Part shown: piece by piece, positions 715-13,929 of the stretch
How the letters are laid out: each line of letters begins with the position of its first letter
Position numbering within the stretch: the stretch's first letter is position 1
Source: a virus
Strand: one strand, 5' to 3'
Virus record (IMG/VR): IMGVR_UViG_3300028874_000037
Location: 1-23,132 of that record
DNA length: 23,132 nucleotides
Program-made: the position numbers and the translations under genes
The notes under the pieces: generated by a model
What the model was told of the DNA's origin: nothing
What the model saw: only the letters and a program-made list of their open reading frames with translations
The model's database searches: none

Positions 715-3432
715 ATGGCGATTCCCAAGGGTGCCGCAAAGTCTACGGCGCTTGCGCCTAGCTTCGTTGCGCGCGTCGCGGCTGGCGTGCGCTATATGGT
801 TTCCGGCTCTGATCCGTCTTGGTTCGGTCCGGATACGCCGCTTGACCCCGTTACATCGCCGCAAGAGCAGCCAAGCGTAACGGGTCGCCAGCTCGACTAT
901 ATGGTCGGGTTCAACACGATGACGCAGCCGCGTCAGAATGAGCCAGTCAGCTTTGAGCAAATGCGCGCGCTGGCGGACGGATATGACCTGCTGCGATTGG
1001 TGATCGAGACACGCAAGGATCAGCTGGCCGCGCTGAATTGGACGATCAAGCCCAAGGACGCTAAAGCTAAGCCAGATCAGCGTTGCACCGATTTGATTGC
1101 CTTCTTTGCGTTTCCAGACCGCGAGCACGCTTGGGATGATTGGTTGCGCATGGTGCTGGAAGACCTGTTCGTGCTGGACGCGCCTTCCATCTACGTCCGG
1201 CCGACGAATGGTGGACAAGTCTACAGTCTGGAACCAATTGATGGCGCGACCATCAAGCGCGTGATTGATGATCATGGCCGCACGCCGGCGGCGCCATTGC
1301 CGGCATACCAGCAAATCTTAAAGGGCGTGCCGGCCATTGATTACTCGGCTGACGAACTGATATACAAGCCACGCAACCCGCGAACCAGCAAGATCTACGG
1401 CTATAGCCCGGTCGAGCAGATCATCATGACGGTGAACATCGCGATTCGCCGCCAGCTCAATCAGCTCAGCTATTACACCGATGGCAACGTCCCGAACACA
1501 ATTTTCCGTGTGCCGGCTAGCTGGAATCCGGATCAGATCAAGCAGTTCCAGCTCTGGTGGGATTCGCTCACCTCCGGGCAGAGCAAGCACGTCGGTCGGT
1601 TCATCCCGGAAGGGCCGGACCCGATCGACACCAAGCCGGCCGCTCTGAAAGACGAGATGGACGAATGGCTGGCGCGCATCGTGTGCTTCGCGTTCAGCGT
1701 CTCTCCGACGCCGTTCATCAAGTCACAGAACCGGGCCACGGCTGACAACGCCAAAGAGCAGGCCATGCAGGAAGGCCTGGCGCCGCTGCAGAAGTGGATC
1801 AAGGGGCTGGTCGACCTAGTGTTGGTGAAGCACTTCGGCATCACGGATCTGGAGTTCGGCTGGTCGGAAGAGGTTGCACTCAATCCGGTAGACCAGGCCA
1901 CGGTGATGGATAAGAAGATCCGCAACGGATCGATGACCATCAACGAGTCGCGCGCGCTTGACGGCGAAGAACCGATTGAGGGCGGCGACACTCCGTTGAT
2001 CTTTACCGCGGCGGGCGCCGTCACGCTGGACAGTGTAATCAATCCGCCACCACCACCGGCCCAGCTTGCGCCATTCGCTGGCGGGAATACCGATCCTGAC
2101 GCTAGTGTTGGTAATGACGACGACCCGCAACCAGGCGGTAAAGCAACATCACCAGACAATGCCAAAACCGGTGAGAAGGTGGCCAAGGCAAAAAAAGCGT
2201 TGCGCCCGATCGACAGAGACCGCAAAGCAGTAACGGAGCAGCGGGACGAGTTGAAAAGGGCGCTGCAGGATCTGTTCAAGGCTCAGGCACCGCTCATAGC
2301 TGCTCAGGTGACTGCCAGCATGGGCAAGGTGGCAAAAAAGCGCCAATCCTCTACTGACGCCGATCAGATCGATCTGGATCTATCCGACTGGGATGACATC
2401 GTCTCGCAGACCACCTATGTGCTGACCTCTGTTGGCAAGGATGGTGTCGGCGAGGCGCGCACCCAGATCGATATGGGCGTTGATGATGACGCGCTGAGTT
2501 TGGCCAATGACCATGCGATTGCCTATGCCAAAGACCGTGCCGCCGAAATGGTCGGTAAGAAGTGGGTCGATGGTGAGCTGGTAGATAACCCTGATGCTCA
2601 GTGGGTGATCACCGATAGCACGCGAACCATGATCAATGCTCAGGTCCAGCAGGCCATGGAAGACGGCCTGAGCAACGATGACCTTGCTGCCGCGATACAA
2701 GATGGCTACGCCTTCAGCGATGCACGCGCCGAAATGATCGCCAGAACCGAAACGGCTAATGCTGACGTACAAGGCAATCTCGCCCTGTACAAAGAAAGCG
2801 GAATGGTTAGCGGTAAACAGTTGCTGGCTGCGCCGGATTGCTGCGAGGAATGCCAGGATCTGAACGGCACAGTGGTTGGCCTGGATGACGATTTTCCCGA
2901 TGGCGACCCGCCGCTTCACCCGAGCTGCCGATGCGACGTCCTGCCGGTGCTGGACGATGATGACGTCGAGGCGTATCGCCATACCGGCGACTTGGCGAAA
3001 GCCTACAACCCTGATCAGCCGCGCGATGAGCATGGAAGGTTCGGTGGTACCAAGGGCTTCATCGCTGGCGATGCCCCTGTTGAGGCGATCAATGCGGCAC
3101 TGGGAAAGGCGCTTGAGAAAGGCAAAATCTTCTTTAGCGCGATGATGCATATCAAACTGAAAGAGAAACACGGCGCGGACTATGCGGCGGTAATGGCTGG
3201 AATGAAGGCGTGTTTGACCAAGCCGGATTACATTGGGGAGCACCCAGGGCATCCGGGGAAAATTATGCTGGTAAAGGCGGTTGAGGGACTGGAGCAAGGA
3301 AAGCCGGCAATGATCGTTTCAATGGTGGGGAGTCAGAACTCTCACGGGAATTTCCCTGGCGCATCTGCTTATGGCTTGAAGCAAAGTCAACTTGATCGGT
3401 TTGTTGCTGGCGGATATCTCAAGAAAACCTAA
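715..3432 (+). CDS. Portal protein fused to SPP1 gp7/Mu F-type head morphogenesis domain and a C-terminal toxin-like (PBECR-type?) domain
   Basis: At 905 residues this is about twice a usual portal. Residues about 60-450 are portal-like: an N-terminal VIETRKDQLAALNW segment, then YGYSPVEQIIMTVNIAIRR, and a helical stem with PTPFIKSQNRATADNAKEQ. Portals form the dodecameric DNA gate at one capsid vertex. A Pro-rich linker (near 445) and a charged stretch lead to a head-morphogenesis domain (PF04233 type) at about 520-750, with the hallmark ARTETA at 676, the paired cysteines CCEEC, and PPLHPSCRCDVLP. Residues 763-776 read AYNPDQPRDEHGRF, a linker that I recall often precedes cargo domains in phage head proteins. 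The last 130 residues (KPDYIGEHPG, GASAYGLKQ) resemble phage-carried BECR-fold nucleases of MuF-type polymorphic toxins; this last assignment is from memory and tentative. Start ATG at 715 follows the previous stop by three bases. Confidence 0.88.
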   Translation: MAIPKGAAKSTALAPSFVARVAAGVRYMVSGSDPSWFGPDTPLDPVTSPQEQPSVTGRQLDYMVGFNTMTQPRQNEPVSFEQMRALADGYDLLRLVIETRKDQLAALNWTIKPKDAKAKPDQRCTDLIAFFAFPDREHAWDDWLRMVLEDLFVLDAPSIYVRPTNGGQVYSLEPIDGATIKRVIDDHGRTPAAPLPAYQQILKGVPAIDYSADELIYKPRNPRTSKIYGYSPVEQIIMTVNIAIRRQLNQLSYYTDGNVPNTIFRVPASWNPDQIKQFQLWWDSLTSGQSKHVGRFIPEGPDPIDTKPAALKDEMDEWLARIVCFAFSVSPTPFIKSQNRATADNAKEQAMQEGLAPLQKWIKGLVDLVLVKHFGITDLEFGWSEEVALNPVDQATVMDKKIRNGSMTINESRALDGEEPIEGGDTPLIFTAAGAVTLDSVINPPPPPAQLAPFAGGNTDPDASVGNDDDPQPGGKATSPDNAKTGEKVAKAKKALRPIDRDRKAVTEQRDELKRALQDLFKAQAPLIAAQVTASMGKVAKKRQSSTDADQIDLDLSDWDDIVSQTTYVLTSVGKDGVGEARTQIDMGVDDDALSLANDHAIAYAKDRAAEMVGKKWVDGELVDNPDAQWVITDSTRTMINAQVQQAMEDGLSNDDLAAAIQDGYAFSDARAEMIARTETANADVQGNLALYKESGMVSGKQLLAAPDCCEECQDLNGTVVGLDDDFPDGDPPLHPSCRCDVLPVLDDDDVEAYRHTGDLAKAYNPDQPRDEHGRFGGTKGFIAGDAPVEAINAALGKALEKGKIFFSAMMHIKLKEKHGADYAAVMAGMKACLTKPDYIGEHPGHPGKIMLVKAVEGLEQGKPAMIVSMVGSQNSHGNFPGASAYGLKQSQLDRFVAGGYLKKT

Positions 3433-7289: not shown

Positions 7290-7822
7290 TCACCGGGCGG
7301 ATTACTGGCGATCGTGAAGTTCTGGCCACGTTTAACCGGATGCCTGGTGGCCTGCAAGACAAGCTGGCCAAGACCATCACGCGGCTGTGCCTAAAGCTGC
7401 AGGTGCATGTGGTGCAGGATAAGTTATCCGGTCAGGTGTTGAACGTTAAGACAGGGCGCTTACGCCGCAGCATCACGTATGCGGTAACTACGCCGGGCGC
7501 ATCATCCGTACAGGGCACGGTCGGGACCAATGTGGCCTATGGGCGATTCTTTGAGCTCGGATTTCAGGGTACGGAGAACGTGAAAGAGCACCTTCGCCGG
7601 ATACGCGAGCATGGCACGATGGTTCTGAAAGCTGCCAAAGGCCATGACATGAAAGTCTGGGCCAAGCAGCGCGGGAAGCTTACTGGCGATGAAGTCGTTG
7701 TTCGTGCTTACACTCGCCACGTGGATATGCCCGCGCATTCGTTTCTTGGATCGGCGCTCAATGATATGCGGCCTGAAATTTTGGAACAGATCAATCAGAC
7801 AGTGAAGGAGTCCACCCGGTGA
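7286..7822 (+). CDS. HK97 gp10-like head-tail/tail-completion protein
   Basis: A 178-residue protein with hallmarks of the gp10-like family. It has an N-terminal helix with a conserved turn (VLATFNRMPGGLQDKLAKTI), then NVKTGRLRRSITYAV, a GTNVAYGRFFELGFQG strand-turn, and VDMPAHSFLGSALNDMRPEI close to the end. The NVKTGRLRRSI and MPAHSFLGSAL segments are the most diagnostic. Family members act at the head-tail junction or tail completion, though the exact step differs between phages. It overlaps both neighbours by four bases (ATGA upstream, GTGA downstream), so the three genes are likely translationally coupled. Confidence 0.82.
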   Translation: MITGRITGDREVLATFNRMPGGLQDKLAKTITRLCLKLQVHVVQDKLSGQVLNVKTGRLRRSITYAVTTPGASSVQGTVGTNVAYGRFFELGFQGTENVKEHLRRIREHGTMVLKAAKGHDMKVWAKQRGKLTGDEVVVRAYTRHVDMPAHSFLGSALNDMRPEILEQINQTVKESTR

Positions 7823-8241
7823 TTTCTCGTGAAACGATCTACTCCGCGTTGTTTGCGCGATTGAGTGCGGCGGGGCCATTTGTCACGACGTCGCGCAAGC
7901 TCAAGCACTGGAACGACGTCAAGCCGCCCCAGCAGCCGGCTATGTTCCAGGCGCAGAAGACCGAGGTGCCGCAGCAGACGCCGGGCCTACCGACCAAATG
8001 GATGCTTGCTACTGATGTTTACGTCTATGCCCGCGCGCCTGGTAGCTCGACCCCGTCAACCATCATTAATCCACTACTGGACGCGATCGAGGCCGCGCTG
8101 GCGCCGGATCCGATCACCAACAAATGCACGTTGGGTGGTCTGGTTCAGCACGCTTGGATTGATGGTGAGATTCAGACCGACGAGGGCACGCTAGGCGATC
8201 AGACCGTGGCCATCATCCCGATTCGCATTCTCGCCAGCTAG
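7819..8241 (+). CDS. Tail terminator-like protein (minor tail component)
   Basis: A 140-residue protein starting at a GTG overlapping the previous stop. It opens ISRETIYSALFARLSAAGPFVTTSRK, a helix-plus-strand beginning typical of tail terminator (gpU/gp17-type) proteins that cap the tail tube and bind the head connector. The middle WMLATDVYVYAR and the ending QTVAIIPIRILAS are beta strands in keeping with that fold. The position between the gp10-like gene and the tube protein is the standard one. Sequence conservation in this family is low, so the call leans on gene order. Confidence 0.72.
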   Translation: MISRETIYSALFARLSAAGPFVTTSRKLKHWNDVKPPQQPAMFQAQKTEVPQQTPGLPTKWMLATDVYVYARAPGSSTPSTIINPLLDAIEAALAPDPITNKCTLGGLVQHAWIDGEIQTDEGTLGDQTVAIIPIRILAS

Positions 8242-8264
8242 TCAGGCTAGCAAACCCATTTCAG

Positions 8265-8284
8265 ACCCGCTTCGGCGGGTTTTT
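8265..8284 (+). terminator. Intrinsic terminator with TTCG tetraloop
   Basis: ACCCGC (8265-8270), loop TTCG, GCGGGT (8275-8280), then T to 8284. A second hairpin, GCTAG/CTAGC at 8237-8251, overlaps the stop codon of the upstream gene. This marks the head/tail module border; the tube-gene ribosome binding site (AGGAGA) begins eight bases after the T-run. Confidence 0.8.
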
Positions 8285-8302
8285 CCATTTTAGGAGAACC
8301 AT

Positions 8303-9085
8303 ATGTCGCAATTCGCTTTTGGCGTTGGCGCTATGTACGTTACTCAGCTGCAGGATGCCTGGGGGAATGCGATCAGCAACCCTACGCCGCTGCCTTTGCT
8401 GACTCTGCAAGAAGGCAGTATCGATATGTCTGCCGATAACAAAGAACTGTACGGTCAGAACCAATACGCTGCTGCTGTCGCGCGCGGGAAGGCGAAGTTG
8501 ACCGTAAAGGTTAAGCCGGCCCGTATCTATGCCGCACTGTGGAATGCGCTGTTCTTCGGCCAGACATTGACCTCTGGCCTGCTGGCTATCCAGACCGATA
8601 CCACTGGCGTGGCCATTCCGTCCGCAACCCCCTACACGGTTACGCCGACGCCACCCAATACCGGCACCTTTGTGTCCGATATGGGCATCATATCGGCGAC
8701 GGGTTATCCATTGACTCGGGTGGCCAGCGGCAACACGCCAGCAACGGGGCAGTACACCGTAACCACTGGCGGCACCTATACCTTTGCCGCCGCAGATGCC
8801 GGCAAGACGGTGTACATCAACTATCAATACACCGTTGCCAGTGCCAATGCCGGTACCGCCCAGATGGAAACCGTCAGAAACTTGCCAATGGGGTACGCCC
8901 CTCAGTTCAAGGCTGACTTGTGTGTGGGATATCAAGGCAAGCTGGTGACGTTCAGTATTCTGCAGGCGATCGCCACCAAGATGAGCCTGGGATTCAAAAA
9001 CGAGGACTTCGCGATCCCAGAATTTGACTTCTCGGCGATGGACAACGGGACCGGAAACATCATGACTTGGTCGACTTCGGAGTGA
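8303..9085 (+). CDS. Major tail tube protein
   Basis: The 260-residue product follows the terminator with its own strong ribosome binding site (TAGGAGA, 8291-8297), as expected for an abundant protein. The opening QFAFGVGAMYVTQL, the segment LLTLQEGSIDMSADNKELYGQNQYAAAVARGKAKLTVKVK, and the later AGKTVYINYQYTVA look like the beta-rich fold of siphoviral tube proteins that stack as hexamer rings. A Thr/Pro/Gly-rich stretch near 105-150 could be a surface insertion. The next genes are the G/GT-type chaperones and the tape measure, which confirms the role by synteny. Confidence 0.82.
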   Translation: MSQFAFGVGAMYVTQLQDAWGNAISNPTPLPLLTLQEGSIDMSADNKELYGQNQYAAAVARGKAKLTVKVKPARIYAALWNALFFGQTLTSGLLAIQTDTTGVAIPSATPYTVTPTPPNTGTFVSDMGIISATGYPLTRVASGNTPATGQYTVTTGGTYTFAAADAGKTVYINYQYTVASANAGTAQMETVRNLPMGYAPQFKADLCVGYQGKLVTFSILQAIATKMSLGFKNEDFAIPEFDFSAMDNGTGNIMTWSTSE

Positions 9086-9137
9086 TGCGATGCATCGTTT
9101 ACCTTATCCCGTACCACCACCGCTACGGAGCAATGCA

Positions 9138-9452
9138 ATGGAATTGATTGATGGTGCTGAAATCAAAATGGGCGGGAAGCTCTGGGTGGTGCCTGCCTTG
9201 TCGTTCAAGCAGGTGAAGCGCCTACTCCCGACGATGGGGCGCGTTGGCTCCGGCAATGTGACACCTGAAAACATGGGGGATATGGCAGAGGTCGTGCATG
9301 CCGCTCTGTCGCGTAACTATCCTGATGTCACCCTGGATGATGTCGAGGACATGCTGGACTTGAGCAATGCTCTGTCGTTGTTCTTGGCCGTGATGGGGCA
9401 ATCCGGTATGGAGATGCGCCAGCAGGGGGAAGCTCAGGCGGGGAGCCGTTAA
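9138..9452 (+). CDS. Tail assembly chaperone, short product (G-type)
   Basis: The ATG at 9138 is preferred over one at 9090 because GGAG (9127-9130) is well placed and the extra 16 residues look like non-coding filler. The 104-residue product begins MELIDGAEIKMGGKLWVVPALSFKQVKRLLP and contains the acidic helical segment TLDDVEDMLDLSNALSLFLAVM, as in tail assembly chaperones that coat the tape measure before tube assembly. Its stop (9450-9452) lies within a longer reading frame shifted by -1, producing the extended form described in the next entry. Confidence 0.75.
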   Translation: MELIDGAEIKMGGKLWVVPALSFKQVKRLLPTMGRVGSGNVTPENMGDMAEVVHAALSRNYPDVTLDDVEDMLDLSNALSLFLAVMGQSGMEMRQQGEAQAGSR

Positions 9453-9682
9453 ATTGGGGGAAGCTGTATTCCCACTTGATAGCCTGTACTGGCTGGACGT
9501 GGGAATACATCGACAACTACATGACGATTCCCCGCTTGTCGGAAATGACGGATTACTGGGCTGATTACCCGCCGGCACATGTGATGATCGCCCAGTATTT
9601 TGGTATAGGTAAAAGCAAGGATAAGCCATCCGAAATTGATGGAGATGGTAATTCGCTGTTCGATTTATTCCCGAGTGGGTAG
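9138..9682 (+). CDS. Tail assembly chaperone, -1 frameshift product (GT-type)
   Basis: The -1 frame is open from well upstream of the short-product stop to TAG at 9680-9682. It encodes GEPLNWGKLYSHLIACTG, then WTWEYIDNYMTIPRL, then MTDYWADYPPAHVMIAQYFG. The WTWEYID...PRL...YW motif is familiar from the T half of GT-type chaperones. There is no good start of its own (only TTG at 9476, after the conserved LNWGKLY part). A shift near 9425-9445 joins the halves into a protein of about 180 residues. In lambda-like phages a few percent of ribosomes shift; here the efficiency is unknown. The product should bridge tape measure and tube subunits. Confidence 0.72.
9424..9446 (+). promoter_or_regulatory. 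Candidate -1 ribosomal frameshift site
   Basis: In the zero frame the codons run CAG GGG GAA at 9423-9431. The G5 run (9425-9429) lets a P-site GGG re-pair perfectly after slipping back one base. A second chance is GCG GGG AGC at 9438-9446, where GGG can also slip. Neither is the textbook X XXY YYZ heptamer, so which one is used is unresolved; the need for a shift comes from the open, conserved -1 frame. Confidence 0.5.
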
Positions 9683-9743
9683 AATATTTCCAAACAACAA
9701 ACTAGCAGCCGAATATCGGTTGCTGTTGTGCCTTGGAGATAAT

Positions 9744-10022
9744 ATGAAAAAATTGTTAATGACAGTGGTTTGTGTAATTTTGGTTGGTTGCGCAGGGACT
9801 TCATTTGGTTGGAGTTCTGCGCGACAAGTAAAATCCGGGATGACAACGCAGGAAGTAACAAAAATTATGGGAGCCCCTTATTCTGTTACCAGCACGGGGG
9901 GAAAGATGATTTATGTCTGGTCATCTGCAAATGGGTTTACCGGATCAGTGAAAACTTTAGCTGTCGTATTTGTTGATGGAAAAGTAATAACAGCCCCAAC
10001 AGTGCCAGAAGAATACAAATAG
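9744..10022 (+). CDS. Small outer-membrane lipoprotein, SmpA/BamE-like
   Basis: The ATG at 9744 (ribosome binding site GGAG, 9735-9738) opens a 92-residue protein with a clear lipoprotein signal: MKK, a hydrophobic stretch, and lipobox LVGC with Cys16 as the lipidated residue. The mature part, SARQVKSGMTTQEVTKIMGAP, then MIYVW and LAVVFVDGKV, matches the SmpA/OmlA (BamE) fold as I know it. A two-helix face precedes a small sheet. It sits between the chaperone and tape measure genes, has lower GC than its neighbours, and is not a known virion part, so it looks like a lysogenic-conversion (moron) gene. Possible roles include superinfection exclusion at the envelope, but that is inference. An earlier frame start at 9636 lacks a signal peptide and is rejected. 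Confidence 0.7.
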   Translation: MKKLLMTVVCVILVGCAGTSFGWSSARQVKSGMTTQEVTKIMGAPYSVTSTGGKMIYVWSSANGFTGSVKTLAVVFVDGKVITAPTVPEEYK

Positions 10023-10078
10023 TCATCCATTAATATAAAAAAATAGCATGGAAAGAAGCCGCTAGTTAGGGATAAAAA

Positions 10079-10735
10079 ATGAACAAAGGTCGTGGATTTC
10101 TCTGGTGTGTTGTTGCTTTTTTTGTATTCGTTCCGCTCAATTGGGCGCGAATCACGGCAACAGATGGGTTGCCAAAAGGTACTCCGTGGTGGGGTTTAGT
10201 TCTTGGAACAGTGGTCTGCTGGGGTGTAGCCTATTTCTTGGCCAAGATGCTTATATCTGGAGCAAAGAAGCCGCACGATCATGAAGAGCGTGAAGTCCAG
10301 CAGCTGCAGTTACTTCTTAATCAGCCGCTTACTGAGATCAGGCCTCACAGTGCCATCCTGAAGCCTGGCGAAAAGGCTTACGGCTCTGTTCGGGCAACGC
10401 TGCATGAAACTCAGACTATGGGTTACTCTGCGGGTACTGCCGGTGTAAGTGTGCACGTAGCCAAGGGCGTAACCATTCGAACCGGAGGCATGAAGGGCCG
10501 GGCAGTTAAAGGTGTGGTGAGCGTTGCGTCAGGCGAGCTTGTTGTGACTGATCAGCGGATTATTTTTGCAGGTGATATGAAATCATTTGCCATTCAACTT
10601 GGCGATCTACTGAATGTTACCAACTATACCGATGGCTTTGGCTTTAATGATGGGAAGTCTACTCGGGTGGTGACTACCGATAGTGACCGTGATCGCATTA
10701 TATTTTCTTCTACGCTCGGGAAGGTTCTAGGGTAG
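10079..10735 (+). CDS. Membrane protein with two N-terminal helices and a PH-like C-terminal domain (cargo gene)
   Basis: The 218-residue product has hydrophobic stretches at about 7-23 and 37-61, so the N-terminus is a helical hairpin in the inner membrane. A Glu/Gln-rich linker leads to a C-terminal domain of about 130 residues. That domain contains ILKPGEKAYGSV, VVSVASGELVVTDQRIIFAG and FAIQLGDLLNV, the pattern of bacterial PH-like (bPH/GRAM-type) domains, where a TDQRI-type strand is typical. No enzyme motif is visible. The gene follows the lipoprotein gene, shares its lower GC, and is followed by two strong terminators. The pair thus forms a cargo cassette inserted in the tail operon. 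An envelope function for the lysogen is plausible but unproven. Confidence 0.6.
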   Translation: MNKGRGFLWCVVAFFVFVPLNWARITATDGLPKGTPWWGLVLGTVVCWGVAYFLAKMLISGAKKPHDHEEREVQQLQLLLNQPLTEIRPHSAILKPGEKAYGSVRATLHETQTMGYSAGTAGVSVHVAKGVTIRTGGMKGRAVKGVVSVASGELVVTDQRIIFAGDMKSFAIQLGDLLNVTNYTDGFGFNDGKSTRVVTTDSDRDRIIFSSTLGKVLG

Positions 10736-10761
10736 ATCGTAAAACGAAAAGACAAACAAGG

Positions 10762-10780
10762 CCGCCTTTTGGCGGTTTTT
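10762..10780 (+). terminator. Terminator after the membrane cargo gene, first of two
   Basis: CCGCC (10762-10766), loop TTTT, GGCGG (10771-10775), T-run 10776-10780. Closes the lipoprotein/membrane-protein cassette. Confidence 0.78.
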
Positions 10781-10786
10781 AATTTC

Positions 10787-10818
10787 AGCCTCACGGCTTA
10801 TCCCGTGGGGCTTTTTTT
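10787..10818 (+). terminator. Strong terminator directly before the tape measure gene
   Basis: AGCCTCACGG (10787-10796) pairs with CCGTGGGGCT (10803-10812), 10 bp with one G-U pair and a 6-base loop, followed by seven T residues (10812-10818). Only 13 bases separate it from the tape measure ATG, so tape measure transcription must pass it from upstream, unless an undetected promoter lies inside this short gap. Confidence 0.8.
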
Positions 10819-10831
10819 ATGTGAGCCAGCC

Positions 10832-13333
10832 ATGTCCGACAACAACATTGACGTCACCATCGGAGGTAATGCGACGGGTGCCGTTGCTGCTATGACCGAT
10901 GCTGCGTCGGCAGTAAAAGGCGGCGTGGAGCAGATGAGCTCCGGTATCGAGCAACTGGGTGCCGTCTTTGAGCGATTCAAGGGCATGTTTGTACTGTTCT
11001 CAGCGGTCCTGGCTGGCGGTGAGGCATTCAAAGCGAGTATCCAGGCGGCGAATAACTGGAATAGCCAAGTCGGCGCGATGGCTAAACAGATGGGCATAAC
11101 CACGCAACAGGCATCCGTTATGTCGGTGGCGTTACATGGTATTGGCGTTAGCTCTGACACATACCGCCAGGCCGCAATGATGATGACGCGGCAGATATCC
11201 TCAAATGCCAGCGCCTTCAAGGTGCTTGGCGTCGCCGTCAAAGATGCTCATACCGGCGCGCTACGCCCGATCAGCGATGTAATGAGTGACGTGAACACCA
11301 AGCTTAACGGCTTGACGAACACCGCTGAGCGCAATACCGCTGGCATGAAGGTTTACGGGCGCGGCTGGGCGGAAGTGCAAGGCATCCTCAAACTGAATGC
11401 GGGCGCAATGAAGGAAGCCCAGGAAACTGCCGAGCGCCTGCACCTGATTGTCGGGCCGGAAGGCGTGGCGCAGACCAAGGCCTATGCCAAAGAGCAGCGC
11501 GAACTCGGCTTGGTTGCTGAGTCGCTAGAGATTCAGGTTGGGAATACGCTTTTGCCCGTAATGGTCAAGCTTGGGGCCTGGCTTGGCGATATTGGGCCAT
11601 CGGTGGCAAGTCGCTTCAGTCAGACCATGGCTTTGCTAGGCACTGCTGTTGAGGATCTTTGGGATATTTTCAGATCCTTTAACGATCTGCTGTCTGAAGT
11701 ATGTACCGATATTCTGGGCGACGTTACAGAGGTATTTGGTAGCAAGCTGCCGGAAAACTTTGATATTGCGGGCTACGCGATCAAGGTATGTCAGTCGTTG
11801 TTCACTGCTTTTCGGTTTGCGGTCCTGGAGGTTTTCCAGGCGGTTGCTGGTTATCTCGAGGTTGCTGCCAGCGACTTTAAGACCTTTGGCCAGGTCGCTA
11901 ACGATGTCCTGCATTTGGATTTTGCCGCAGCCAAAGCAGACATGGCCGCTGGGTTTGAACAGATCGAATCCATCGCCAAGCAGCACGCAGCCAAGATGGT
12001 ACAAATCAAAACCGATTCTGACGCCAAGCTCAAAGAAGTCTGGGGCGCGCCCAAAAAGAAAGAAGCTGAATCAACTGGCGATAAGTCCAGCCAAGATGGC
12101 GGCCAGCATCTTGATTTTGATAAGCAGAAAAAGGGTAAGTCCGGCGGGTCCGACCAAATGGCTGTATGGAAGGCTGAGCTGGAACAGAAGAAAGAGGCCA
12201 GCAACGATTTCTTCAAAGACGATCTGAACATGGAGGTCGAATTCTGGCAGAGCAAGCTGGCGTTGGTGAAGGGCAATAGCAAGCAGGAAGTCGCCGAGCG
12301 CCGGCAAATCCAAAATGAGCTGTATCAACTGGACAAACAGCAGGTTGAACAAGGCCGGCAGCTTGAGGATGAGGAAATATCCTATGAGGAAAAAGCCGGG
12401 AAACAGAAGGTAGAAACCGAAAAAGCCGCAATTCAAGCCAAAAAAGATATGGGCGAAATCGGCGCCGTTCAGGAAATCCAGCAGCTTCAGAAGGTAAAGG
12501 ACGAAGAGTATCTGATCGAGCGTCAGGCATTGGAGGCAAAGAAAGATTTGTATGAGCAAGATCGTGTAGCAAAGCAGAAGGTGCTGGACCAAATCGCGTT
12601 GCTTGAAAAACAGCATTCGATGGATGCAACTCAGTCTGCTACCGCAATGGCTCAGGCGCAGAAGACGCAAACCGAAGCCATGCTGGCTCCAATCTCTCAG
12701 GCGATGGATAAGACCGTCACCGGCATGATCATGGGTACGCAGACGCTGCGCCAGGCCGAGGCCAACATCGTTCAAAATATCCTCGGCGAATTTATCTCGA
12801 TGCTGACCAGGAAGGGTGTGATGTGGGCGGCAACCGAGGTCGGCATGACCGCGGCCTCAAAAACGGGCTCGTCGGTGCGCGACTCACTATCTACTACCAG
12901 CTCTAGCACTGCGATCAGTGCAAAGTCCACCGAGGCCATGGGCGCCGTCAGCGGCAACGCCGCCGAGGCGGCATCTGGCGCCGCAGCATCCGTTTCAGCC
13001 ATCCCCGTCGCTGGTTGGGCGATGGCGCCAGGTGTGTTCGCCAGCGTTATGGCGATGGTGCTGGGCGCGAAGAGTATGATTCCGTCTGCTGCCGGCGGCT
13101 TTGACATTCCCGCCGGCGTTAATCCTCTGACTCAGCTTCACGAAAAGGAAATGGTGCTACCGAAGGAGCACGCTGAGGCCATTCGGAATATGACCGGGGG
13201 TAGTAGTGGCGGCGGTTCTCAGCATTTACATATCCACGCAACGGACGCGGCGAGTGTCGAGCGGCTATTCAAAAACAACGGTGCAGCCTTAACCAAGGCG
13301 GCAAAGGAGCAGCTCCGGAGGTTCGCGCGATGA
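10832..13333 (+). CDS. Tail tape measure protein
   Basis: The ATG at 10832 is chosen over an upstream in-frame start at 10769, whose codons run through two terminator hairpins. The 833-residue product begins with SDNNIDVTIGGNATGAVAAM and is helical throughout, with hydrophobic segments near residues 40-60. A long Lys/Glu/Gln-rich coiled coil covers about 425-620, and an Ala/Ser/Gly-rich hydrophobic part about 680-760. The end AAGGFDIPAGVNPLTQLHEKE then MVLP is a recurrent tape measure C-terminal motif. The protein sets tail length and takes part in DNA ejection. At the usual 0.15 nm per residue the tail would be roughly 125 nm. It overlaps the next gene by four bases. Confidence 0.88.
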   Translation: MSDNNIDVTIGGNATGAVAAMTDAASAVKGGVEQMSSGIEQLGAVFERFKGMFVLFSAVLAGGEAFKASIQAANNWNSQVGAMAKQMGITTQQASVMSVALHGIGVSSDTYRQAAMMMTRQISSNASAFKVLGVAVKDAHTGALRPISDVMSDVNTKLNGLTNTAERNTAGMKVYGRGWAEVQGILKLNAGAMKEAQETAERLHLIVGPEGVAQTKAYAKEQRELGLVAESLEIQVGNTLLPVMVKLGAWLGDIGPSVASRFSQTMALLGTAVEDLWDIFRSFNDLLSEVCTDILGDVTEVFGSKLPENFDIAGYAIKVCQSLFTAFRFAVLEVFQAVAGYLEVAASDFKTFGQVANDVLHLDFAAAKADMAAGFEQIESIAKQHAAKMVQIKTDSDAKLKEVWGAPKKKEAESTGDKSSQDGGQHLDFDKQKKGKSGGSDQMAVWKAELEQKKEASNDFFKDDLNMEVEFWQSKLALVKGNSKQEVAERRQIQNELYQLDKQQVEQGRQLEDEEISYEEKAGKQKVETEKAAIQAKKDMGEIGAVQEIQQLQKVKDEEYLIERQALEAKKDLYEQDRVAKQKVLDQIALLEKQHSMDATQSATAMAQAQKTQTEAMLAPISQAMDKTVTGMIMGTQTLRQAEANIVQNILGEFISMLTRKGVMWAATEVGMTAASKTGSSVRDSLSTTSSSTAISAKSTEAMGAVSGNAAEAASGAAASVSAIPVAGWAMAPGVFASVMAMVLGAKSMIPSAAGGFDIPAGVNPLTQLHEKEMVLPKEHAEAIRNMTGGSSGGGSQHLHIHATDAASVERLFKNNGAALTKAAKEQLRRFAR

Positions 13334-13929
13334 GTTCAGCCGTTTATCCGGTACTCCCCGGTTTGGCGTGGCCAGTTAAGCGCACGCCGACTTGGAATAC
13401 ACGCGTGCAGAAGACCGCCAGCGGGCGGGAAATGCGCGCCTCGTTCTACAGCTACCCGCTCTATAGCTACGAGCTGCAGTACGAGTTCGCTCGCGCCAGC
13501 CAGCAGCATCAGGAATATCAGACGCTGCTCGGTTTTTATAACGCGCGCCAGGGGCAGTTTGATACGTTCCTGTTTGATGATCCATCCGACGATACGGTGC
13601 TGGCCAGCGCGCCGCAGTCGTTTGGCGTTGGAGATGGATTAACGACACAGTTTCAACTGGTGCGCTCTTTTGGCGCTTACGTCGAGCCGGTGCTGGCGCT
13701 GCAGGGCACGCCGACGATCATGATTAATGGCGTGCCGACGGCGGTATACACAGCATTGTCGAACGGCATCATCCAATTCAGCGCGGCGCCTGCCGCTGGC
13801 GCTGTGCTGACGTGGTACGGCATGTTTTATTGGGTATGTCGCTTTGCTCAAGACACCTGTGACTTCCAGGAGTTTGTTTATAACTTCTGGAGCCTGAGTA
13901 AGGTCGAATTGATTACGGTGAAACCATGA
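13330..13929 (+). CDS. Distal tail protein, DUF2460 (TIGR02217) family
   Basis: A 199-residue protein with family landmarks: LPGLAWPVKRTPTWNTRV at the N-terminus, YELQYEF, LLGFYNARQGQFDTFLFDDPSD, and the ending FVYNFWSLSKVELITVKP. The GFYNARQG...FLFDDP block is the clearest signature. In gene transfer agents and related siphophages this family forms the distal tail ring that joins tube and baseplate hub. ATGA overlaps at both ends show tight coupling with tape measure and hub genes. Confidence 0.88.
   Translation: MSSAVYPVLPGLAWPVKRTPTWNTRVQKTASGREMRASFYSYPLYSYELQYEFARASQQHQEYQTLLGFYNARQGQFDTFLFDDPSDDTVLASAPQSFGVGDGLTTQFQLVRSFGAYVEPVLALQGTPTIMINGVPTAVYTALSNGIIQFSAAPAAGAVLTWYGMFYWVCRFAQDTCDFQEFVYNFWSLSKVELITVKP

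Follow-up and report, generated by a model that had tools for sequence, protein, structure and literature searches.

A foreign two-gene cassette at the chaperone–tape measure junction of a virus, with a possible role in superinfection exclusion

Introduction

A moron, in the sense of Hendrix, is present in one phage and absent at the same junction in relatives, has an odd composition, and carries its own terminator and promoter. Small phage exclusion lipoproteins such as Llp serve in the Gram-negative envelope. Several described systems are relevant here. Injection is blocked by HK97 gp15, from which hybrid phages escape when their tail tube and tape measure protein (TMP) genes are different ones (PMC10883804). 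Ltp, the superinfection exclusion lipoprotein of the temperate siphophage TP-J34, also targets the TMP, and its gene is placed in the lysogeny module and not by the TMP gene (PMC3952083). Lipoproteins of the mEp phages exclude phages within groups that share a receptor (PMC11893012), and SNIPE is a TMP-sensing inner-membrane defence, some homologues of which have PH domains (PMC13190303). Here we analyse a two-gene cassette, encoding a BamE-like lipoprotein and a membrane protein with a PH-like domain, that lies just upstream of the TMP gene in virus record IMGVR_UViG_3300028874_000037; the whole stretch of 23,132 nucleotides is called the window. A literature search by title, with most subscription journals outside its reach, returned nothing about the pair and nothing that places BamE-like lipoproteins next to the TMP.

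Results

The slot between the chaperone-type frames and the TMP gene spans 1149 bp (positions 9683–10831) and holds two genes on the + strand. One encodes a 92-aa lipoprotein with a BamE/OsmE/BLIP-type domain (9744–10022; PF04355, PHROG 3135, and a structure model) and the other a 218-aa membrane protein with two N-terminal helices and a PH/GRAM-fold domain (10079–10735; AlphaFold model, VIA, and homologues). The guanine-plus-cytosine (GC) content of the slot is 0.460 against a window mean of 0.570, and among non-overlapping stretches of equal length the minimum is 0.501. At third codon positions (GC3) the lipoprotein gene stands at 0.344 and the PH gene at 0.466, while the 18 other listed genes range from 0.58 to 0.77. 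The cargo pair is foreign in composition, in line with an earlier note, made from the letters alone, that called its genes AT-richer, and the envelope signals described there, a lipobox and two membrane helices, are present.

We then compared the junction in relatives, which were collected by their tail tube protein. This gave 25 viral loci and matches in 11 of 399, 1 of 3 (the same genome), 4 of 268, and 7 of 158 genomes, with no match in the 369 genomes of the class of G001. Tail-tube matches G241, G380:C20, G1102:C574, G1102:C173, and G1147 were left out of the slot survey. In 7 of the 45 loci examined (L020, L022, L023, L027, L161, L162, and L163) the junction could not be measured, and the measured loci include near copies (L010–L012; L015–L017 with L026; L018, L019, and L024; L158, L164, and L165; L159 and L166). 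The slot is empty in 28 of the 38 measurable relatives, where chaperone and TMP genes overlap or lie at most 49 bp apart, and filled in the other 10, where 271–1333 bp separate them and the inserts lie on either strand. None of the 45 loci has a match to either window protein, so the pair is not a set of core tail genes conserved in all relatives at normal GC, one of the two outcomes that the earlier note had named as fatal to its proposal. Because the junction is empty in most relatives and holds unrelated genes on both strands in the rest, we conclude that it is a hot spot for swappable cargo, i.e., a moron slot. The pair is absent from the relatives' junctions, differs in composition from its flanks, and is followed by two terminators, although similar terminators precede other late genes. 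The proposed cargo cassette is thus borne out by composition, by the variable slot, and by inserts on both strands, and we hold with high confidence that the pair is a moron cassette of foreign cargo.

Filled slots fall into eight kinds when L158, L164, and L165 are counted as one, and four of these include a membrane protein or lipoprotein (L149, L150, L167, and L025) while four do not (L003, L004, L005, and L158). In the Burkholderiales prophage L149 (reverse complement of 2037–3319) the slot holds an unrelated lipoprotein, a terminator, a holin (PF16083), and a VanY-type endolysin. L150 has a short open reading frame (ORF), a zinc-ribbon TM2 membrane protein (PF05154), and a terminator; L167 has a 72-aa two-helix membrane protein and a terminator; and L025 has, on the reverse strand, a zinc-ribbon protein with one membrane helix. 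The slots of L003, L004, and L005 hold a soluble 70–80-aa ORF and a terminator (L004 was scored by eye, having been missed by the script), and those of L158 (1674–2221), L164, and L165 a ParE-like/ParD-like pair on the opposite strand. Genomes G228 and G1036 each have a second prophage of the same type whose slot is empty (L159 and L166). Two side observations concern this cargo. L149 has its lysis genes at the chaperone–TMP junction, and a short soluble ORF with a PGVNG-like motif and no family recurs in the slots of L003 (7337–7570), L004, L005, and L150; it may encode a small tail protein or be cargo.

The lipoprotein begins with a signal peptide and a lipobox, LVGC, at residues 13–16 (by inspection), which is the lipid anchor signal of Ltp-type exclusion lipoproteins, and the residue after the cysteine is alanine. 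Since the Lol +2 sorting rule sends lipoproteins that lack an aspartate at this position to the outer membrane, the protein is probably lipid-anchored there, on the periplasmic side of the envelope. It scores 24.6 bits against PF04355 BamE (cut-off 23.2) and belongs to PHROG 3135 (E 4.5e-15). Pfam matches up to E 1 are limited to BamE, SecDF_P1_head, BLIP, and DUF7738, with no Ltp family among them, and the protein stays well under the equivalog cut-offs for BamE (PRK11548, 13.2 vs 93 bits) and OsmE (18.5 vs 65 bits). Its model, built from three sequences (predicted local distance difference test, pLDDT, 76.2), resembles Neisseria BamE, OsmE, BLIP, and a type VI secretion system immunity protein, with a best E of 3.0e-3. 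Some proteins with a BamE/OsmE/BLIP-type fold bind and inhibit other proteins, which is suggestive only. Single-sequence scans of viral contigs with either window protein found no relatives, and a PDB sequence search with the window proteins gave only matches at E 0.33–0.34.

Viral scans with an alignment or with single members of the lipoprotein family reached 15 distinct contigs, and in 12 of these the BamE-like gene lies 5′ of the TMP gene with no tail gene between, a count that the TMP-adjacent seed biases towards close relatives; L175, which has no convincing ORF, is scored as a miss. The gene is on the strand of the tail operon in L127, L170, L171, L172, and L174 and on the opposite strand in L126 and L177–L182, the last six being near copies (the TMP of L171 and L177–L182 was named by likeness to scanned neighbours and not by its own hidden Markov model scan). 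In L174 an antirepressor-like gene precedes the BamE-like gene and a small reverse gene separates it from the TMP gene. The tail modules differ: L127 has a tail tube of PHROG 158 and a chaperone of PHROG 1749, and L126 has PHROG 853 and 791. Outside the 15 contigs, phage mEp013 has a BamE-like gene 5′ of the TMP gene on the opposite strand, and E. coli prophage GF66.2 likewise has one 5′ of the TMP gene, adjoining a TagO-annotated gene. Among the well-covered E. coli prophages with BamE-like matches 1 of 14 was viewed, and E. coli match H20 and Acinetobacter plasmid match H14 were outside the loci viewed. That the gene also turns up in different tail modules and in the opposite orientation supports recurrence on the TMP side independently of the seed bias. 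As a separate observation, in the mEp013-type E. coli prophages (L177–L182, L133, L126, and L030) the BamE-like lipoprotein is constant on the reverse strand and its partner varies, being a 219-aa lipobox protein, a TagO-annotated gene, a 138-aa secreted protein, or a 59-aa ORF.

The domain and fold of the lipoprotein and the alanine after its cysteine also suit a different explanation, in which an outer-membrane lipoprotein would bind an outer-membrane receptor or disturb its assembly in the manner of Cor and Llp, possibly mimicking BamE at the BAM complex; the TMP would then be irrelevant and the PH protein an independent passenger. The mEp lipoproteins, with their receptor-sharing exclusion groups (PMC11893012), lend this precedent. 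However, the link to Cor does not extend beyond the signal-peptide end (PHROG 1119, E 0.11, residues 1–41), the repeated TMP-side placement is not expected for a receptor target, and the tested exclusion gene of mEp010 instead adjoins the receptor-binding gene J. We regard shielding of a receptor as rather unlikely.

The PH protein has hydropathy helices at residues 7–25 and 41–59. Its AlphaFold model (pLDDT 75.5) has helices at 3–28 and 37–81, strands over 100–200, and a C-terminal helix at 203–217, so that about residues 90–218 form the seven-strand barrel capped by a C-terminal helix that defines the PH/GRAM superfold. The best VIA match is the PH-GRAM domain of MTMR2 (Z 12.8, rmsd 1.9, 93 aligned), and Foldseek alone gave a best E of 3.3e-3 at probability 1.00. 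These matches agree with the PH-like domain proposed from the letters. In a family scan no family reached its cut-off, the best being Vps36 ESCRT-II (E 0.0054). By the positive-inside rule we infer an inner-membrane hairpin with the PH domain facing the cytoplasm.

PH relatives occur in Bordetella avium phages (28.6% identity over 94%, five records), and in the two of the five that were viewed the gene and the repressor are co-directional, the PH gene being the downstream one and a single gene separating them. L111, which is closer (56% over the domain), is in a region without recognised structural genes; in L112 the PH gene is flanked by a baseplate gene (PHROG 6) and tail-fibre genes, and L113 resembles it. 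With settings that differ in this way, PH relatives behave as movable cargo. In Bordetella phages IFTN1/2 and a Moraxella plasmid the PH protein shares with the window protein a PH domain with a conserved KGV motif, and the Bordetella-type member L115 also shares the two N-terminal helices; the N-terminal region of the Moraxella member and of most cellular members differs from that of the window protein. Unlike the window gene beside the TMP gene, the Bordetella PH genes lie behind a repressor. Among cellular genomes relatives are widespread, with 77 loci, many of which lack membrane helices, and the plasmid member adjoins a VWA gene.

That wide cellular distribution and the VWA neighbour of the plasmid member, together with the mixed slot cargo (a ParDE-type pair, a TM2 protein, lysis genes, and a short ORF), would fit a host-fitness or passenger moron, where proteins expressed in the lysogen alter membrane physiology (stress, permeability, or surface) with no anti-phage role and the slot merely tolerates insertions. 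We think this rather unlikely, as the slot repeatedly holds envelope proteins (L149, L150, L167, and L025) and BamE-like lipoproteins recur by the TMP gene in several tail lineages.

Relatives of both window proteins lie behind repressor genes in other temperate phages. The prophage of L004, related to the window phage (69% identity in the tail tube), carries a lipoprotein that falls in the same PHROG as the window protein (E 1.8e-20); its gene lies directly 3′ of a repressor-type gene and is co-directional with it, though the two lipoproteins are too distant for pairwise BLAST (E 0.33). We infer from these settings that the cassette would be expressed in the lysogen.

The slot is part of a late operon on the + strand in which capsid-region genes are followed by the tail tube, two chaperone-type frames, the TMP, and the tail tip. 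The left flank consists of two overlapping tail-chaperone-type frames (9138–9682, + strand), the first at 9138–9452 and the second in the −1 frame, open over 9401–9682. They match PHROG 7947 (E 2.5e-16) and PHROG 8018 (E 2.4e-12), both listed as "unknown function" in PHROGs, with a weak match to PF12363 (TAC, E 0.072), and both also precede the TMP gene in relatives. The right flank is the TMP gene (10832–13333, + strand; PHROG 27190, E 2.6e-37; PHROG 2854, E 7.7e-19). A DNA search with 7800–13400 against phages and a PADLOC scan of the window for defence systems gave no match.

Two intrinsic terminators on the + strand lie between cargo and TMP gene, at 10758–10779 (−13.5 kcal/mol, z −3.8) and 10787–10812 (−17.8 kcal/mol, z −4.9). 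They are where the earlier note had them closing the cassette, but they are not specific to the cargo: double terminators precede the window capsid gene and one precedes the tail tube gene, with matching ones in L004. Because similar terminators stand before other late genes, terminators alone do not mark cargo, and the two before the TMP gene may belong to the operon instead. Since late transcription must cross terminators before the capsid, tail-tube, and TMP genes, it would be expected in this phage group to pass them by processive antitermination of the lambda-Q kind.

Discussion

The reading that we favour, at a probability of roughly 0.45, is that the cassette is expressed in the lysogen and excludes superinfecting phages at the envelope, acting like HK97 gp15 and Ltp while related to neither. 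The lipoprotein would be exported and lipid-anchored on the periplasmic side, and the PH protein would form an inner-membrane hairpin whose PH domain faces the cytoplasm. The two would protect a lysogen, at its envelope, against infection by related phages, the lipoprotein doing so by binding an entering phage protein, the tape measure being favoured, as proposed for HK97 gp15 and Ltp. A block at injection is suggested by the slot, the recurrence of the family by the TMP gene, and the gp15/Ltp precedent. The case for superinfection exclusion is strengthened by gp15 occupying the same slot, by lipoprotein relatives 5′ of the TMP gene in other tail modules, and by relatives of both proteins behind repressors. 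Other envelope cargo in the slot, the unrelated lipoprotein of L149 and the two-helix protein of L167, counts in its favour. SNIPE, some homologues of which bear PH domains, shows that defence from the inner membrane can work by way of TMPs (PMC13190303). That the TMP is the actual target we hold with lower confidence still, as the mixed slot cargo means that position alone is no proof of a TMP target.

Several observations weigh against exclusion at injection. Slot cargo includes toxin-antitoxin pairs (L158, L164, and L165) and lysis genes (L149), and the lipoprotein and PH protein were found together in no other locus examined. The BamE-like gene is away from the TMP gene, by the repressor, in L183 (the prophage of L004, same DNA as L134); it sits in the lysis-terminase gap before the terminase small subunit (PHROG 141) in L173 and between lysis and terminase genes in E. 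coli WP2-S18-ESBL-08; and in Tbat2_3 it lies 3′ of the TMP gene with three genes between. The outer-membrane placing of the window lipoprotein by the +2 rule is unlike gp15 and Ltp. Lpp010, which has been shown to exclude phages, aligns with the BamE-like set over just 21 residues and is of a different family. Finally, the cassette has no convincing promoter of its own, which weakens the case for expression in the lysogen. The TAGAAT hexamer that the earlier note put forward as a −10 element is present at 9680–9685, with a sigma-70 matrix score of 5.3, but a scan of 9600–9760 found no site above background, the best ranking 36th on the + strand, and higher-scoring sites lie within the lipoprotein gene. 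We rejected the hexamer as a supported promoter, since by this matrix it is indistinguishable from background.

Lacking a good promoter of its own and lying on the strand of the late operon, the pair could instead be a late lytic accessory that is transcribed with the tail operon, aids tail assembly, lysis, or release, and has no function in the lysogen; the holin and endolysin genes in the L149 slot would suit such a role. We consider this quite improbable, as the pair is absent from all 45 relative loci, its GC3 is foreign, lipoprotein relatives run opposite to the tail operon in mEp013, L126, and L177–L182, and relatives of both proteins lie behind repressors.

If exclusion does occur, a bolder version, which we offer as a long shot, is a two-membrane gate in which the outer-membrane lipoprotein and the inner-membrane PH hairpin would recognise both ends of the incoming tape-measure channel. 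Genes beside the TMP gene would keep exclusion specificity and self-target together, and the junction would serve siphophages in general as a library of injection blockers, matched in part to the TMP. On firmer ground, the analysis singles out the BamE-like phage lipoproteins as a family that recurs beside the tape measure in several tail modules, and its members in E. coli phage mEp013 and E. coli prophages make the injection-blocker idea testable in K-12.

Set beside known systems, the window lipoprotein passes the PF04355 cut-off and shares the fold of the BamE/OsmE/BLIP superfamily while remaining far from the BamE and OsmE equivalogs. The domains of SNIPE, DUF4041 and the GIY-YIG nuclease, gave no match in Pfam or PADLOC scans. 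With the Cor and mEp exclusion lipoproteins the window protein has in common that it is a small phage lipoprotein for the Gram-negative envelope. Lpp010 of mEp010 is gp116, beside and downstream of gene J; the mEp013 BamE-like protein was accordingly rejected as an already-tested exclusion lipoprotein, Lpp010 being of another family and Lpp021 lying outside the comparison. Like Ltp, the window protein is a lipoprotein of a temperate siphophage, but it has a BamE-type domain and a TMP-adjacent gene. The likeness to Ltp drawn in the earlier note is weak on both gene location (PMC3952083) and Pfam matches, and the window lipoprotein was rejected as a true Ltp, as the Ltp domain is absent up to E 1.

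The nearest parallel is HK97 gp15. It aligns with neither the PH protein nor the lipoprotein set, and we therefore rejected the pair as its true homologue; gp15 is also a single 62-aa protein, whereas the window has two larger proteins, one of them a lipoprotein. In HK97 (AF069529) the order is gp14 with its frameshift, gp15 ("moron product"), a terminator, and the tape measure, so gp15 occupies the same slot as the window cargo, between frameshifted chaperone and tape measure and followed by a terminator. Like the window cargo it is AT-rich (GC 0.33 in a 0.51 locus) and a membrane protein, and the present comparison would turn HK97 gp15 from a single-phage case into one instance of a recurrent slot.
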